Assembly: GCF_014489575.1 (NCBI RefSeq) | Contig: NZ_CP060789.1 | Coordinates: 1,054,001 to 1,118,000, forward strand | Source of the DNA: Tessaracoccus defluvii | GTDB lineage: Bacteria > Actinomycetota > Actinomycetes > Propionibacteriales > Propionibacteriaceae | Length of the DNA stretch: 64,000 nt | Reading direction: 5' to 3' | Shown: positions 5,638 to 40,732 of the stretch, piece by piece | Layout: every line of letters begins with the position of its first letter | How positions within the stretch are numbered: the stretch's first letter is position 1 | Notes under the pieces: model-generated | The model's input: the letters and a program-made list of their open reading frames with translations, nothing else | What the model was told of the DNA's origin: nothing | The model's database searches: none | Program-made: the position numbers and the translations under genes

Positions 5638-5655
5638 ACCACCTCAGGGCATGGA

Positions 5656-5691
5656 AGAGGCGGCCGCATCCCGGGGGATGCGGCCGCCTCT
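5656..5691. terminator. Bidirectional terminator between rel and the DUF349 gene
   Basis: A perfect 17-base-pair stem (arms 5656-5672 and 5675-5691, GC-rich, closing on GG) sits between two convergent genes, 18 bases after the rel stop and 9 bases beyond the DUF349 stop. There is no clear U tract on either strand, as is common for actinobacterial terminators. Confidence 0.85.
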
Positions 5692-5700
5692 ACTCGTCGG

Positions 5701-9082: not shown

Positions 9083-10891
9083 GTGATCCGTTCTCACGAA
9101 GCCGGAGAGCTGCGAGCCTCGCACGTCGGCCAGGAAGTCGTCCTCGCCGGGTGGGTGGCCAAGCGCCGCGACCATGGGGGTGTCGCCTTCATCGATCTGC
9201 GCGACGCGTCTGGCATCTGCCAGGTCGTCGTCCGTGACGAGTACCTGGTCTCCGCAGGCATCCACGATCTGCGCAACGAGTTCTGCATCAAGGTCACGGG
9301 CGCCGTCGACGCCCGGACGCCTGAGAACGTGAACCCCAACATCCCGACGGGTGAGGTCGAGGTCGCCATCCGCGAGCTGGAGGTGCTCAACCCCGCAGCG
9401 CCGCTGCCGTTCCAGATCGACGAGCGCACCACCGTCGGCGAGGAGGCCCGCCTCCGCTACCGCTACCTCGATCTGCGTCGGCCGCGTCAGCACGAGGCGC
9501 TCGTGCTCCGCTCGAAGGTGACCCACACCATCCGCCAGGTCCTGGACCAGCACAACTTCTACGACATCGAGACCCCGACGCTGACGCGCTCGACCCCCGA
9601 GGGCGCACGCGACTTCATCGTCCCCGCCCGCCTGCACCCGGGCAAGTGGTACGCCCTGCCGCAGAGCCCGCAGCTGTTCAAGCAGCTGCTCATGGTCGGC
9701 GGCATGGAGCGCTACTACCAGATCGCGCGCTGCTACCGCGACGAGGACTTCCGCGCCGACCGGCAGCCGGAGTTCACCCAGCTCGACATCGAGATGAGCT
9801 TCGTCGACCAGGACGACGTCATCGCGCTCGCCGAGAAGGTCATGGCCGCCTGCTGGCAGCTGATCGGCGTGGAGATGCCGACGCCCCTGCCGCGGATGAC
9901 GTGGCACGACGCCATGGACAACTACGGCTCGGACAAGCCCGACCTGCGCTTCGATCTGAAGATCCGCGAACTGACCGAGTTCTTCAAGGACACCCCGTTC
10001 CGTGTCTTCCAGGCCCCCTATGTGGGAGGCGTGGTCATGCCCGGCGGCGCATCGCTGCCGCGGCGTCAGTTCGACGCCTGGCAGGAGTGGGCCAAGCAGC
10101 GCGGCGCCAAGGGGCTCGCCTACATCACGGTCGGTGAGGACGGCACGCTCGGCGGGCCCGTCGCCAAGAACATCACGGAGGCCGAGCGCGACGGCATCGC
10201 CGCGGTCATGGACGCCAAGCCCGGCGATGCCATCTTCTTCGGCGCCGGCGCCCGCGAGGCGTCGCAGGAGCTCCTCGGCGCCGCGCGCCTCGAGATCGGA
10301 CGCCGCACCGGTCTGATCGACGAGAACGCTTGGAGCTTCCTCTGGGTCGTCGACGCTCCGATGTTCAAGTCGACCGCCGACGCGCAGGCCTCGGGTGACG
10401 TGGCGCTGGGTCACGGCAAGTGGACCGCGGTCCACCACGCGTTCACGTCCCCGAAGCCCGAGTCGATGGACACCTTCGACACGGATCCCGGCTCGGCGCT
10501 CAGCTACGGCTACGACTTCGTCTGCAACGGCAACGAGGTGGGCGGCGGCTCGATCCGTATCCACCGGCGCGACGTGCAGGAGCGGGTGCTGGCGGTCATG
10601 GGTATCTCCGAGGACGAGGCGCAGGAGCAGTTCGGCTTCCTGATCGATGCCTTCCAGTTCGGCGCCCCGCCGCACGGCGGCATCGCGTTCGGCCTCGACC
10701 GACTCGTGATGCTGCTGGGTGGCTTCGACACGATCCGCGACGTCATCGCCTTCCCGAAGAGCGGTGGCGGGTTCGACCCGCTGACCGAGGCGCCGGCGGC
10801 CATCACGCCGCAGCAGCGCAAGGAGGCCGGCGTCGACGCCAAGCCGGAGCCCAAGGACGACGCGGCCGCGGCGGCACCAGCCACGAGCTGA
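9083..10891 (+). CDS. aspS: Aspartyl-tRNA synthetase, probably nondiscriminating
   Basis: Charges tRNA-Asp (and probably tRNA-Asn) with aspartate. The 602-residue bacterial-type enzyme has an N-terminal OB-fold anticodon domain, motif 2 ([21 protein letters not shown], key residues DFRAD..PEFTQLD), a GAD insertion and motif 3 ([15 protein letters not shown]). The C-terminal tail of Lys/Ala/Asp is not conserved. His31 in VAKRRDHGG is the residue found in nondiscriminating AspRS, where E. coli has Leu; such enzymes work with GatCAB to make Asn-tRNA. GTG start chosen from the GGAAAGGA box. Confidence 0.95.
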
Positions 10892-33382: not shown

Positions 33383-33848
33383 GCGGCGACTCTGAACCAG
33401 TTCACATCGCAGACCTTACCGAGCACCACCCACCATTGGTCTGCGAGTAGAGCATCAGTCACACCGCACCAGACGGGTGTCCGCTGGACCAGGCCGGCTC
33501 AAGAGCAATCGGCGCCGCAGCGATGAACGCGTCATCGGAACGACCGGAGACCCAGGTGGCCGGTCTGCCGCTACCGCAGTCCAGGGCGACTGAGGGATGG
33601 GAGGCCCCAGATTATGCCCCCGGCAAACGCCTCGACTTCAGACAGACTGACATAAGGCAGGTTCTCGGCCAGGAGTTCCACGGCGCTGTCGCCCTGCAGG
33701 TGCGACCCGCGCGTGATCGGCGCCGAGCGTGACATGGTGGGATGCGGCGTCATTCCTTCTGACACGGCATCTCAGCTAGGAACATGGCGACGAGGAACCC
33801 GATGTCACAGCAGTCGGCGCTGAGCGAAGGCTGCGCAGAGGTAACGTG
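33383..33848. other. Intergenic stretch of 466 bases without a recognisable gene
   Basis: No convincing gene is seen. A 64-codon frame on the minus strand (33571-33765) contains SHLQGDSAVELLAENLPYVS but has no ribosome-binding site and no recognised family. It may be a remnant of an antitoxin or similar small gene. Confidence 0.4.
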
Positions 33849-34064
33849 ATGCGCACGGCGCGCAGGCGAAGGAGTTCAGGAGTGGTGCGATTCACCCTCG
33901 AACTGCTCACCGGCCTCGCCGTCGCGGCGATCTTCATGGTCACGATGTTCTACCTCGGCCCCTGGGCCGATCCACCTGGGATGGACGAACTCTGGTGGCT
34001 GCTCGCTGCAGTGGCGGTCCTACTCGCGTCTTGGCGATGGTGGGCACGCCGACGAACACCTTGA
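33849..34064 (+). CDS. Small two-helix membrane protein
   Basis: A 71-residue protein with an Arg-rich N-terminus (MRTARRRRSS), helix 1 (FTLELLTGLAVAAIFMVTMFYLG) and helix 2 (ELWWLLAAVAVLLASWRWW), ending in Arg residues. The start is ATG 33849 after GAGG. The shape is a clean small membrane protein but I recognise no family. Nothing is seen in the 168 bases between it and the next gene. Confidence 0.5.
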   Translation: MRTARRRRSSGVVRFTLELLTGLAVAAIFMVTMFYLGPWADPPGMDELWWLLAAVAVLLASWRWWARRRTP

Positions 34065-34232
34065 ACACGTGAGCACCACCCATCGCGGCAAGAGCGGATG
34101 TTCGCGCTTCACCAACTCCAGCTCAGGTGGAATCGTCTGGTGCCCGGTTCACGCGTCGTGCGGCGGTTCAGCAGGCGGGGCGAGCTGGATCGGCCGGGTC
34201 GAACGGGCCGGTCGGCGGGTCGGAGGCGGCTG

Positions 34233-34966
34233 TCAGGCCCGCCGGGGCGCCGGATTGATGGCGTCCCCGGACCAGCTCATGTTGTCGTCCACACCAACCT
34301 CGAACGCCTCAAGAGCGGGATCGGCGAGAACGACGTCCGCGACCGCGCGCTCGCAGCCGAGCAGCGTGAAGCCGAAGTCGATCTCGGTGGCCAGACACCA
34401 GACGTGGTCGTCCGGCCATACGAGGTTCGCCGACTGCCCGAAGCTCTCGTCCTCGACCCACGTCTCGTGCGCGGCCAGGGGCGCCCGGAACAGGTGGTAG
34501 CGCCGGTGCGGCAGGGCCAACACCGGCTCGGCACCCCCGGGACCCGGCTCGGCACCGGGACCTCGTAGGTCATCAGATCGGGGTGGTGCGCCTCGACCGC
34601 GCCGCCTCCCCAGAACCCGTAGCCCTCCCACACCGCGTAGGTCACGTCCCCAGACGCCTGCAGGTGTGCGACCAGCGCGTCGTGGTCGGGGCGCGGGAGA
34701 TGGCCATCCGGCGGCCACAGGTTCGGGTGGCGCAGGGTGTCGAACATGTGGCTCCACTGCGCCAGGGGATGCAGGACGCGTCCATTGGACGCCGCGATCT
34801 CCCGCCAGCGGCGTCCGTCCGGCAGGGGGTGCAGGACCCGCACATACGCCGCGAAGCCCGTCGGCACCATGGCACCCACCGGAACCCCAGCCGGTCCCCA
34901 CGGCAGCAGCCGGGGCGCGAGCCAAGCCGACAGGGCGGCGTCCGTCGTGTGGCGAGGCAGGGCCAT
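34233..34966 (-). CDS. Uncharacterised actinobacterial protein (frameshifted in the read)
   Basis: Starts at ATG 34966 (MALPRHTTDAALSAWLAPRLL). It resembles an uncharacterised family common in Streptomyces, with the pattern AYVRVLHP...WREIA..NGR.LHP.AQW, AVWEGYGFW, PHRRYHLFRAPL and NLVWPDDHVWCLATEIDFGFTLLG. The frame breaks after VPVPSRVPG; one more C in the plus-strand run at 34534-34538 restores it. About 244 residues when repaired. Soluble, with no signal peptide. Function unknown. Confidence 0.65.
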
Positions 34967-35101
34967 ACCGCAAGGGTAAGGCCGTAGCGCCCCACTCCTG
35001 ATGTGCGGGAACGGGGCCACCCGCTCGTTGCGGACAGCGTTCAACACGAAGGCATACCGCGCTGCGGCAAGCGGAGCCGACACACGACCCTCGCGCAACC
35101 C

Positions 35102-35122
35102 GCGGCACGTCCGGATGTTCGG
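35102..35122 (+). repeat. Left copy of a 21-base direct repeat flanking yefM-yoeB
   Basis: Matches 35778-35798 in 20 of 21 positions (C at 35108 versus T at 35784). The core shared by both is GTCCGGATGTTCGG. This copy lies eight bases beyond the 3' end of yoeB. Confidence 0.8.
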
Positions 35123-35129
35123 TGAGTGG

Positions 35130-35396
35130 CTACTCGTAGTGGGTCCACATCCTCAGGATGTGGACAACGTGGCGATCAGGGAGCACCTCATAGACAAGTC
35201 GGTGCTGGATGTTGATGCGCCGTGAGTAGCAGCCAGCGAGGTCGCCGACCAACTTCTCGTACTTGGGTGGCGTGGTGAACGGGTCCTGGGCCAGAACCTC
35301 CAGCAGGTGCTGCGCCTTCGTCTTCAGCCCTGAGGAGGCCAGCTTCTGGGCGTCCTTCTGGGCTTGGCGTGAGTACACCAGAGTCCAGGGACTCAC
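35130..35396 (-). CDS. yoeB: YoeB/Txe-family toxin
   Basis: An 88-residue RelE-fold mRNA interferase that cuts mRNA at the ribosomal A site. Family features: WTLVYSRQAQKDAQKL, the middle LAGCYSRRINIQHRLVYEV and the C-terminal THY, which carries the catalytic His-Tyr pair. It is encoded downstream of its antitoxin with an ATGA overlap, the usual order. The whole module is bracketed by a 21-base direct repeat. Confidence 0.85.
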   Translation of the reverse strand: MSPWTLVYSRQAQKDAQKLASSGLKTKAQHLLEVLAQDPFTTPPKYEKLVGDLAGCYSRRINIQHRLVYEVLPDRHVVHILRMWTHYE

Positions 35397-35635
35397 CAGT
35401 CAAGCTCGGTCGAGCCCGCGTCGACACCCTCCGCGCGGGAGCGCCGGATGGAATCGGCCAACCCCGGTACCGACTCAAGGAACAGCGTCTCCTGGATGGC
35501 GAGCCAGTCCTCCTCGCCGATGAGCACGGCGTTGCCACGCTGGCCGGTGATGGTCAGCGGCTCGGACTCCTCGTTGACCTGGTCGATCAACCGGTACAGG
35601 TTCGCGCGGGCAGACGTTGCGCTCACAGCAGTCAT
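35393..35635 (-). CDS. yefM: YefM/Phd-family antitoxin
   Basis: An 80-residue antitoxin: the N-terminal Phd/YefM DNA-binding domain (TAVSATSARANLYRLIDQVNEESEPLTITG, key part SARANLYRLIDQV) is followed by a C-terminal toxin-binding tail (LFLESVPGLADSIRRSRAEG). I chose ATG 35635, which follows GGAGG and a promoter/operator, over upstream in-frame starts. It overlaps the toxin start by four bases. Confidence 0.85.
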   Translation of the reverse strand: MTAVSATSARANLYRLIDQVNEESEPLTITGQRGNAVLIGEEDWLAIQETLFLESVPGLADSIRRSRAEGVDAGSTELDW

Positions 35636-35685
35636 AGGTACAACCTCCACCAAGCAGCGTACGTTATGACGTACGTTACTGCAAG
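35636..35685 (-). promoter_or_regulatory. yefM-yoeB promoter and palindromic operator
   Basis: On the minus strand TTGCAG, a 17-base spacer and TACGCT form a promoter. The palindrome CGTACGT/ACGTACG with a TATG centre (35658-35675) lies across the spacer and -10. YefM of E. coli binds palindromes with a TGTACA core overlapping its promoter; a GTAC-centred repeat in the same position fits autoregulation by this YefM. Confidence 0.55.
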
Positions 35686-35777
35686 TATGGACGGAAGAGT
35701 CGAGGTCACGCGGCAGGGGCACCGATGCGATTCGGTCTGGCCATACACCTGCCAGACCGGACTCGACCGTCCCAGGA

Positions 35778-35798
35778 GCGGCATGTCCGGATGTTCGG
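35778..35798 (+). repeat. Right copy of the 21-base direct repeat flanking yefM-yoeB
   Basis: Same orientation as the copy at 35102-35122, one mismatch. The remaining sequence from 35686 to 35993 shows no gene. Confidence 0.8.
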
Positions 35799-36980: not shown

Positions 36981-37202
36981 TCGGCACACGCCCTTGCTTC
37001 ACGGGTGGAGAAGCGCCCGCTCGGGCCTGACCTCTGCAGGCGAGTGGCGGACCGGATCATCGCCGAGACTTCAGCCGCGCCTCGCGGCAGAAGCGGGCGT
37101 TGTGCATCGTGTGGGGTGAACTGCGTGCGGTTTCGCGAGTGACATTCATCTTCGCCGGGTGGCTCCCAGGCTGCGCTCTGCTCCCTGGCATACTGCCTGA
37201 GT

Positions 37203-38486: not shown

Positions 38487-38750
38487 CTACCGGCGTTCGT
38501 AGATGTCGCGGCGGTGGCCGACGGCAACGACAAGGACGAGCAACACGCTGTCGTGAATCTCGTAGACGATCCGGTAGTCACCGGTCCGGACACGCCACTC
38601 GCCGTCGCCTCCAACCAGCTTCTTGGCCCCGCTCGGGCGCGGTTTGCTGGCAAGCAGTTCGATCGCCGCCTGGACCCGCCGCTGGGCGGCCCGGTCCAGC
38701 TTGCGTAGCTGTCGAACCGCAGCGGGCGCGACCTCTATCCGGTAGCTCAT
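38487..38750 (-). CDS. relE: RelE/ParE-family toxin
   Basis: An 87-residue RelE-superfamily toxin: IEVAPAAVRQLRKLDRAAQRRVQ, then GEWRVRTGDYRIVYEI (the family GxxRxRxGxYRxxY core) and a C-terminal VGHRRDIYER. These enzymes cleave mRNA on the ribosome. It is placed directly after its Phd-like antitoxin with an ATGA overlap, giving a complete type II module. Confidence 0.88.
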   Translation of the reverse strand: MSYRIEVAPAAVRQLRKLDRAAQRRVQAAIELLASKPRPSGAKKLVGGDGEWRVRTGDYRIVYEIHDSVLLVLVVAVGHRRDIYERR

Positions 38751-39010
38751 GCCAGGCCGAGGTCGGCCTTGACCTGCTCCCAGGGGATCGCCGACTCACC
38801 ATCGGCGATCTCGGCACGGGCCGCGCGGACAGCCTCGAGGTCGGCCAGGTCTTCCGCGGCCGCGATCAGCCGATCCAGATCATCGGCGTCGATGACCGCG
38901 GCCACCCGCTGCCCCCGGCGAGTCAGGTACACCGGGTCGTGCCCAACCCGGGCCGCGTCCACGACATCGGCGAGGCGGGCTCGGGCGTCACTCACAGTCA
39001 TCTCAGTCAT
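38747..39010 (-). CDS. Phd/YefM-family antitoxin (partner of RelE)
   Basis: An 87-residue antitoxin with the Phd fold (MTVSDARARLADVVDAARVGHDPVYLTRRGQ, of which DARARLADVVDAA is diagnostic; then VAAVIDADDLDRL) and an acidic C-terminal tail. I chose ATG 39010 (MTEMTVSDARA); in-frame starts at 39019 and 39049 are possible. Its first codons lie inside the 3' end of the recombinase gene on the same strand. Confidence 0.83.
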   Translation of the reverse strand: MTEMTVSDARARLADVVDAARVGHDPVYLTRRGQRVAAVIDADDLDRLIAAAEDLADLEAVRAARAEIADGESAIPWEQVKADLGLA

Positions 39011-40214
39011 GCCACCCATGGTAGCCGCTGGAACAGCCGAAACGTACAACTAAGCACCTCCGGGCTTCACCGAGCGAACGCGCGACTCTCGGCAGATGAG
39101 AGTGAAGCGGGGGAGTGGCCAGGGGGCCTCCGGCCGGACCCGGCGACGATTCGAGGCCAAGCCTGCCAACCTCTTCAGAGGGGAGTTGGGTGGCGGCGTT
39201 TTCTTCCCAGGCGTCTTCGATGCGGGTGTAGATGCCGATGGAGGCGAGGTCCTTGTGGCGGGTCTGACGGGCGATCTGCAGGGAGGTGGCGCCGCGTTTA
39301 GCGGCGTAGGTGACGAAACCCGCCCTCAGGGAGTGCGCCGAGAAGCCGGTGGCGTCGAGACCGGCCCGGGTGACTGCCTGGGTGATCAGGCGGGATAGTC
39401 CGTCGGGGGTGAGGCCACGGCTGCTGACGCGGTTGCCTTTGGAGACGGGCCGGAACACCAGGCTTTCGGTGATGCCGGCGACGGTGAGCCAGTGGCGTAG
39501 TGCGGTGACGGGGCAGTAGTCCTGGCGGGCACCCCAGGGGAGGACCACGAGCTCAAGGTCTCCGGTCTGGTTGGTTTTGGAGTGGGTGAGCTCGATCACC
39601 AGGCCGCGATCGTGGGGTTTGATCTGATCGACCTCGAGGGCGGCGAGTTCGGAGGCGCGCAGCGCGGACACGAACCCGACCAGCAGGAGTACCCGGTCCC
39701 GGATCCCGCTGAGCGAGGGTTCATCGTCGCGGGTCTTCCATTTCGTCATCGTCGGGCAGGCATCAACGACGTCGAGGAGGAGTGGGGGCATGAGGGGGCG
39801 GGCCTGGTCCGGGGGAGCCCCGAGCTGTCGGCGGATCCCTTCCCACACGGCGATCACGCGTGCGGTTTGGGTGGGGTCGGGATGGTTACGGACCTTGTGG
39901 GCGAACCGGATCGTCGACAGACGCCGGCTGATCGTGCCGACCTTCGCCCCGGCGGTGGCCAGCGCCGAGATGTAGCGGGAGATCGCGATGTCGGTGGCGG
40001 GCAGCGCCGTGTGGTGGTTGTCGCGGCACCAGGTGACGAACTCGGTCCAGTCGGAGCGGTACCCGCGCAACGTCGACGAAGCCCTCGACGCTGAGGCGAA
40101 CGCAGCCTCGGCCGCATCCAACGACAGGTCCTCCGGCAGCAACATCCCCGCCTGATGATCAACGGCGAGCAGGCCACCAGCCGTTTCCAGTGGACCTGTG
40201 TGCCCCTCAGACAT
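39003..40214 (-). CDS. Tyrosine recombinase, Cre-like in size and layout
   Basis: A 403-residue site-specific recombinase. N-terminal SAM-like core-binding domain (STLRGYRSDWTEFVTWC at about 47-63) and a catalytic domain with R186 (SALRASELAAL), K213 (THSKTNQ), H294 and R297 (AHSLRAG), H320 (TRHKD) and nucleophile Y329 (GIYTR). All catalytic residues are present. The family end (ENAATQL, about 339-344) is followed by a 60-residue low-complexity tail overlapping the Phd start, perhaps read-through past a lost stop. Its start overlaps the upstream 110-residue gene by eight bases, and a loxP-like repeat lies just ahead of that gene. Confidence 0.9.
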   Translation of the reverse strand: MSEGHTGPLETAGGLLAVDHQAGMLLPEDLSLDAAEAAFASASRASSTLRGYRSDWTEFVTWCRDNHHTALPATDIAISRYISALATAGAKVGTISRRLSTIRFAHKVRNHPDPTQTARVIAVWEGIRRQLGAPPDQARPLMPPLLLDVVDACPTMTKWKTRDDEPSLSGIRDRVLLLVGFVSALRASELAALEVDQIKPHDRGLVIELTHSKTNQTGDLELVVLPWGARQDYCPVTALRHWLTVAGITESLVFRPVSKGNRVSSRGLTPDGLSRLITQAVTRAGLDATGFSAHSLRAGFVTYAAKRGATSLQIARQTRHKDLASIGIYTRIEDAWEENAATQLPSEEVGRLGLESSPGPAGGPLATPPLHSHLPRVARSLGEARRCLVVRFGCSSGYHGWHD

Positions 40215-40539
40215 GGGATTCGTCGAGTAGCTCGAGTTGTTCGGCGAGCCAGGTGCGGGCGGCGGCCTCGGCAGCGGGTTTGGCGGCTGTGAGGGTGGGC
40301 TGGACGCCGCGGGCGATGCGGGTCACCTGGTCGGTGCTGCCGGTGCGGTAGACGGTGAGCGTCCAGGTCCACCGGCCGGCGGTGCCGCGCTGGGCCATCA
40401 GCTGCAGATCGTGGCGCTCAGAGATCGGCAGGTTCACACCCCACGCCGACTTCACGCCGGAGCGGGCGTGGCTCCATTCGTACGGGGGCAGCGGCACGTC
40501 GTCGCGGGTGACGAGGTGGTGTCGGCGTCGGGTGGCCAT
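40207..40539 (-). CDS. Hypothetical protein co-encoded with the recombinase
   Basis: A 110-residue basic protein (MATRRRHHLVTRDDVPLPPYEW; LMAQRGTAGRWTWTLTVYRTG) ending in a helical, Ala-rich segment (AAKPAAEAAARTWLAEQLELL). No family recognised. It overlaps the recombinase start and begins 16 bases from the loxP-like inverted repeat, so it could be an accessory or directionality protein for the recombinase. That role is inferred from position only. Confidence 0.6.
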   Translation of the reverse strand: MATRRRHHLVTRDDVPLPPYEWSHARSGVKSAWGVNLPISERHDLQLMAQRGTAGRWTWTLTVYRTGSTDQVTRIARGVQPTLTAAKPAAEAAARTWLAEQLELLDESHV

Positions 40540-40555
40540 GCCTGGATCCTACCGA

Positions 40556-40593
40556 TTATTACATCGGATTCTCTGGATAATCCGATGTAATAA
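40556..40593. other. loxP-like site: 15-base perfect inverted arms around an 8-base spacer
   Basis: Left arm TTATTACATCGGATT (40556-40570), spacer CTCTGGAT (40571-40578), right arm AATCCGATGTAATAA (40579-40593). The arms match perfectly and the spacer is asymmetric. This is the architecture of Cre-type recombination sites (13-base arms, 8-base spacer in loxP). It is AT-rich in a GC-rich setting and is next to a complete tyrosine recombinase operon. It could alternatively be an operator of that operon. The remaining bases to the kinase gene (40594-40732) show nothing else. Confidence 0.6.
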
Positions 40594-40732
40594 CCGCAGC
40601 CCAGGACACGCCCCGAAACCCCACCACTGCACGGGACTCACACAGAGACCGCCGGCTGGCAGGCGCAGTCTGCTGAGGGGTCGTGTGTGTCGGGACCTTC
40701 TGGGCTTACCGTCGGGACGATGGACTGCACTG

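Follow-up and report, generated by a model that had tools for sequence, protein, structure and literature searches.

Within the 64-kb stretch of Tessaracoccus defluvii DNA analysed here (the window), a Cre-like tyrosine recombinase gene, a 110-codon gene and a lox-like palindrome form a mobile unit that may be the head module of an integron-like cassette array outside the IntI family. We give this reading a probability of about 0.5. In the proposed mechanism, the recombinase, which has the palindrome on its 5' side, would insert cassettes, and reshuffle them, at the unit's constant right end. A cassette would be a short stretch of one to a few genes, starting with TGCCG and typically ending with GAACATCCGnnn. 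The unit would also move as a whole, its left border being the outer edge of the palindrome. We infer that the recombinase acts on the palindrome as well as on the cassette junctions, and the palindrome may serve the unit's own movement or its regulation.

Integrons are regarded as a single lineage whose defining features are IntI and folded attC sites. We see a somewhat less than even chance that Tessaracoccus holds an integron of independent origin, in which a mobile Cre-like unit captures double-stranded cassettes at a 3' attI-like point through short core sites (AACATCCGnnnn followed by TGCCGC), with no need for a folded single-stranded attC. Complete IntI integrons have not been found in this phylum. 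An independent origin would mean that the integron design arose more than once, here with another recombinase and a short, linear site. It would also help to explain cassette traffic in Actinobacteria and offer a compact new recombination tool. A short-site cassette system of this kind is not described in the literature searched, which lay outside most subscription journals and included part of PMC8138268.

The palindrome, the small gene and the recombinase gene make up a single unit of about 1.5 kb (window 40592 to 39095). We searched 60 genomes, including that of the window, with each protein and then compared the loci at the DNA level. This yielded nine full or near-full copies of the unit in seven genomes: the window copy (G000), L050 and L051 (G030), L052 (G003), L053 (G011), L054 (G018), L055 and L056 (G008), and L102. 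L054 is interrupted by a contig end, and the recombinase is frameshifted in both G008 copies. The copies are 91-94% identical to the window copy in DNA sequence, and relics of the unit occur at L057-L063 and L067. Identity among the copies begins at the outer edge of the palindrome and stops about 80 bases past the usual recombinase stop codon. The left border of the unit is thus the palindrome edge at 40592, beyond which the flanking DNA diverges. Left flanks vary between copies, the exception being one flank common to L053, the relic L062 and a lone copy of the site (L068). The unit of about 1.5 kb is mobile. Searches found no tRNA at 30-48 kb of the window and no Rfam family at gathering scores at 33.5-41 kb. 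The 47 bases left of the unit (window 40593-40650) match a repeat that precedes a different stretch in L146-L148 and is perhaps an insertion-sequence end.

Table 1. Features of the unit and of the adjoining cassettes, in window coordinates.
Feature	Coordinates	Strand	Basis
Palindromic lox-like site, conserved 14-8-14 (TATTACATCGGATT ATCCAGAG AATCCGATGTAATA in gene sense)	40557..40592	-	Core kept in 9 copies
110-codon gene overlapping the recombinase start, without known family	40207..40539	-	ORF, Pfam, copies
Cre-like tyrosine recombinase, conserved part of about 346 codons; the ORF here continues to 39003	39177..40214	-	Pfam PF00589 and PF02899
Right end of the unit, constant among copies (...CACTCCCCCGCTTCACTCTCAT) and proposed as an attI-like insertion point	39095..39120	-	Identity among copies ceases approximately here
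First cassette, Phd/YefM antitoxin and ParE toxin, starting CTGCCGAGAGTCG; far end degenerate in the window	38487..39094	-	Pfam, shared start border
Degenerate junction with 2 mismatches, ending a stretch shared with L283 (another genome)	37084..37101	-	
Exact cassette junction AACATCCGNNNNTGCCGC	35778..35795	-	
YefM/YoeB toxin-antitoxin cassette	35108..35783	-	Flanked on both sides by the junction motif in 3 other loci
Exact cassette junction	35102..35119	-	
Cassette with a 273-codon ORF without Pfam family, partly shared with L281 (another genome)	34091..35107	-	
Exact cassette junction	34085..34102	-	
Last cassette recognised, also present in L056 (G008) at about 6 kb from G008's own unit	33648..34090	-	

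A preliminary description of this DNA had reported a perfect 15-8-15 palindrome beside the overlapping small gene and the tyrosine recombinase gene, and all three lie at the positions it gave. The arms in the window (40556-40570 and 40579-40593) are indeed exact around the spacer CTCTGGAT, but the conserved arm has 14 bases rather than 15: the outermost T is replaced by G or C in five of the eight other full or near-full copies and belongs to the flanking DNA. With a score of 15, the palindrome is tied for the strongest short-spacer inverted repeat of the window, whereas the best scores in five first-order Markov simulations were 10-13. Random 125-bp stretches of the window reached this score in 7 of 3000 cases. 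The other inverted repeat of equal score (window 5654-5693) has 18-base arms with one mismatch and a 4-base loop and is perhaps a terminator.

The site is conserved. All nine copies retain 27-28 of the 28 core bases (the 8-base spacer and the inner 10 bases of each arm), so that the site is nearly unchanged in every full copy. The relic L061 retains 27 of the 28 bases, even though the adjacent 112 alignable bases are just about 81% identical, and L062 retains 24. The palindrome might be an operator only, bound by the 110-residue protein or used by the recombinase to regulate its own gene, as would suit its place 16 bases upstream of the small gene. We consider this improbable since the palindrome is the border of a mobile unit in nine of nine copies and is twice present without the unit, as lone copies that argue against a pure operator role.

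The two lone copies are L068 and L069. In L068 (9677-9711) the left flank is that of the unit L053 and the DNA on the other side is unrelated, possibly an excision scar. In L069 (around 9665-9705), whose genome is that of a different genus in the family, the palindrome has one spacer change. The core site was not found in viral contigs. A partner site had been expected elsewhere, but the 3.86-Mb single contig of the window's own genome holds none (E 0.001; 3 mismatches), the only other match being the same place on the opposite strand. G018 carries a second, lone copy on another contig; this genome-wide count covered a sample without G003, G008, G011 and G030.

At the right end of the unit, TGCCGA adjoins in seven of the eight units with a readable right flank and also in the relic L058. 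The exception, L050, adjoins TGCTTGATATG instead of TGCCG. The DNA abutting the right end recurs elsewhere with the same start in six of the eight units. Directly right of the L050 unit, the only one without the TGCCG border, lie two more overlapping ORFs (L050:6278-8736) that look recombinase-like by eye. An alternative is a simple Cre/lox-like system for resolving or integrating a larger island, with cassettes nearby by the coincidence of a variable region. It would fit the lox-like architecture of the site, the left flank shared by L068 and L053, as if the DNA between two sites had been excised, and the two sites on different contigs of G018. We regard it as unlikely: the window's own genome has a single site, and a TGCCGA start at seven of eight right ends is too frequent for coincidence.

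The recombinase itself has an integrase catalytic domain and an N-terminal SAM-like domain according to Pfam. The catalytic residues listed for it earlier (R186, K213, H294, R297, H320 and Y329) are invariant in the five intact copies aligned, so that, as in Cre/lox systems, a tyrosine recombinase with the full catalytic set is present. A phmmer search of the PDB related it weakly but significantly to XerD (E about 5e-7) and to Cre (E about 1e-6). The ORF of 403 residues that had been described is present, but this length results from read-through and the usual length is about 346. The recombinases of L050-L053 stop at ...ENAATQLPL (about 346 residues), and the window copy and the frameshifted L055 read on beyond it. 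In the window the frame passes the usual stop into the neighbouring cassette, which encodes the last stretch. The structure model of the recombinase (mean pLDDT 41.9) was too poor for use.

On plasmids, the best relatives of the recombinase come from Pseudonocardia and share 54-55% identity over 85% of the query. Matches in phages are limited to six records, all below 35% identity. In five of 12 plasmid homologues a palindrome with a 6-8-base spacer lies at a distance of 16-58 bases from the start of the gene (L152, L309, L311 and L312) or of the operon (L307), and each of these was matched by 0.7-5% of random 125-bp stretches. The remaining seven have no palindrome at or below the 5% level near the start; the operon-start stretch was additionally tried for eight of the 12. 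In 280-bp stretches the random match rates are 2% for L152, 18% for L309, 8% for L311 and 10% for L312, and because these rates reach 18%, the plasmid homologues modestly suggest a cognate palindrome near the recombinase gene. A few of 29 class-level homologous loci also have nearby palindromes, which were left uncounted because orientation was unresolved for minus-strand matches.

The palindrome resembles known Cre/lox-type sites in having arms within 13-16 bases, an asymmetric spacer within 6-8 bases, a place near the gene and conservation with it. An intergenic palindrome beside the gene is the architecture used in finding Nigri/nox and Panto/pox (PMC4957104, in part). With the Cre/loxP-type systems (Cre, Dre, Vika, Nigri and Panto) the unit shares this intergenic palindrome with an 8-base spacer and a weak kinship to Cre, with which the sequence comparison was made. 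It differs from them in that the site borders a mobile unit and is single in its own genome, in the co-encoded small protein and in the cassette array at the other side. A Cre/lox-like pairing of recombinase and palindrome is plausible from sequence. The preliminary description, which proposed such a pair, was borne out in the weak Cre kinship and the conserved site, but it overlooked the mobility of the unit and the cassettes at its other end.

The small protein matches in seven of the 60 genomes, its own included, all of the same genus, and the seven copies are 90-93% identical to that of the window. Profile searches found no family, and plasmids gave no match. A structure prediction suggests four strands and a helix at low confidence (mean pLDDT 67.4), and the best match of this model in the PDB has an E value of 0.27. 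The protein is therefore left without a fold assignment.

The DNA to the right of the unit is modular. It consists of sharp-bordered cassettes with the TGCCG start and, typically, the GAACATCCGnnn end, several of which recur elsewhere with identical borders. The junction consensus is GAACATCCGnnnn followed directly by TGCCGC, and a junction spans about 18 bases. In cassettes shared between loci, the nnn bases of the consensus stay with the cassette upstream of them and the base preceding TGCCG is variable, which in our reading places the exchange at or inside TGCCG. An earlier candidate for the cassette mark, CTGCCGAGAGTCGCGCG, showed no genome-wide excess over its reversed control at 2 mismatches, so the junction consensus was rebuilt from the borders. 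Comparing all borders with one another by 5-mer enrichment gave too noisy a result. A stricter scan returned at least 126 clusters; at least 13 of them carry a TGCCG tag in the scanned orientation, one or more of which (L213/L214) arose by chance. Many other clusters carry GCGGCA, which is the TGCCG mark on the opposite strand.

Individual cassettes can be followed between loci. In six other loci the Phd/ParE cassette begins at the same border, preceded by unrelated DNA, and five of these six share the end AACTCG just past the toxin stop. Cassettes to the right of L051, L052, L053 and L055 likewise recur elsewhere with the same start. The L052 cassette recurs in L206, where both ends match over 432 bases at 98.8% identity. 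It also lies right of the L102 unit, which has a different left flank, and there ends in CACTCAAC before TG.

The cassettes and array stretches encode Phd/YefM proteins with ParE or YoeB, a ribbon-helix-helix protein, FitA with PIN, Fic/Doc and HigB. They also encode two acetyltransferases, a metallo-beta-lactamase-fold protein and an APH-like kinase, and six of 20 scanned ORFs have no family. These cassette genes are of the integron sort.

Where junctions are found near units, they lie downstream in one orientation. All eight junctions with at most 1 mismatch within 9 kb of eight units are downstream of and co-oriented with the unit: three in the window, two at L055 and three at L056. None occurs at this stringency within 9 kb of the other five units, and the right-hand sequence available is 4.6 kb at L051, 1.5 kb at L053 and nil at L054; L102 was outside this check. 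The left flanks of the eight units (4.2-9 kb) hold no junction at the same stringency. As in integrons, a directional array of small, sharp-bordered cassettes lies beside the recombinase, with strict junctions by three of the eight units.

Across genomes, counts were limited to exact matches because the reversed control is as frequent as the junction in many genomes at 1 mismatch. At least 47 exact junctions were counted in the 30 of 39 genomes scored, where about 0.04 per genome are expected. The six carriers of the unit that were scored have 5, 3, 7, 2, 4 and 7. Among the 24 non-carriers, five have 2-5, three have one and sixteen have none. Two or more exact junctions thus occur in six of six carriers versus five of 24 non-carriers (Fisher P about 8e-4 over the 30 scored genomes, relatedness ignored). 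The five non-carriers with 2-5 exact junctions indicate that arrays exist without the unit, and one of them (G021) holds unit relics. Two more exact junctions lie in the window's own genome far from the window (G000:C1:3747465-3748172).

A second tyrosine recombinase occurs among the cassettes. Int2 (L145:4957-5874) is a XerD-like protein of 306 residues that is also present in L206, L212, L218 and L221. At E 1e-30 or better it is found in six of the 39 genomes of the genus, with a full-length open reading frame in G027, G060, G022 and G026 and in pieces in G011 and G030. In the loci read, which do not include G026, it sits among cassettes. Some genomes, such as G061 and G031, have exact junctions with neither Int2 nor the Cre-like unit. 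Because junctions occur without either enzyme and Int2 lies in arrays, association alone cannot settle which enzyme moves the cassettes.

Another recombinase such as Int2 could move the cassettes, with the Cre-like unit an insertion-sequence-like element that settles at cassette starts and has the palindrome as one end. Int2 does reside in arrays, following a cassette-unit start, TGCCGCAGCC, in L218 and L206, and junctions are found in genomes that lack the Cre-like unit. We hold this as a serious but less probable explanation, since Int2 is absent at E 1e-30 from G000, G003, G008 and G018, which all have exact junctions and the Cre-like unit, and since an element homing to internal junctions should have cassettes on its left side too, where the eight units checked show no junction with up to 1 mismatch in the 4.2-9 kb available. 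The place of the Cre-like unit at the head of the array leads us to favour it over Int2, at about even odds. The short-site cassette system of the genus stands whichever recombinase moves the cassettes.

The cassette junctions seem unlike dif. The dif/pdif arrays of Acinetobacter also consist of short-site gene modules, which are moved by tyrosine recombinases, XerCD (PMC12907356, in part). They differ from the arrays described here, in which the junctions near units all have one orientation and a dedicated recombinase unit heads the array.

The likeness to integrons extends to a tyrosine recombinase that heads a directional array of small mobile cassettes, to the abundance of toxin-antitoxin pairs and acetyltransferases among the cassette genes, to a constant end adjoining the recombinase gene, and to junctions that also occur in genomes without the recombinase, as in CALINs. 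In archaea, attI lies directly downstream of intI (PMC9668308, in part), which is the layout proposed for the right end of the unit. The secondary structure of attC sites is conserved (PMC9024848, in part), whereas the junctions here are short (about 18 bases) and gave no fold signal that would mark a folded attC. For 17 junctions, mean z values in three frames were 0.20, -0.26 and -0.22 versus -0.01, 0.02 and -0.37 for randomly chosen places (RNA energies, 25 shuffles each). A weak resemblance of the palindrome to the junctions in ACATC(C/G)G was not counted as significant, and the two have different central bases. Against the integron-integrase model TIGR02249 the recombinase scores 23.3 bits, where the cut-off is 265, and it is therefore not an IntI.

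A classical integron was rejected as the source of the cassettes. IntI exceeds the cut-off in three of the 39 genomes, and the five stretches around these matches (L236-L240) contain no junction at up to 1 mismatch. The gene neighbouring these matches is presumably sul1-like, and the matches are probably recent arrivals of class 1 integrons. A partial IntI match in a fourth genome, G061, lies just below the cut-off.
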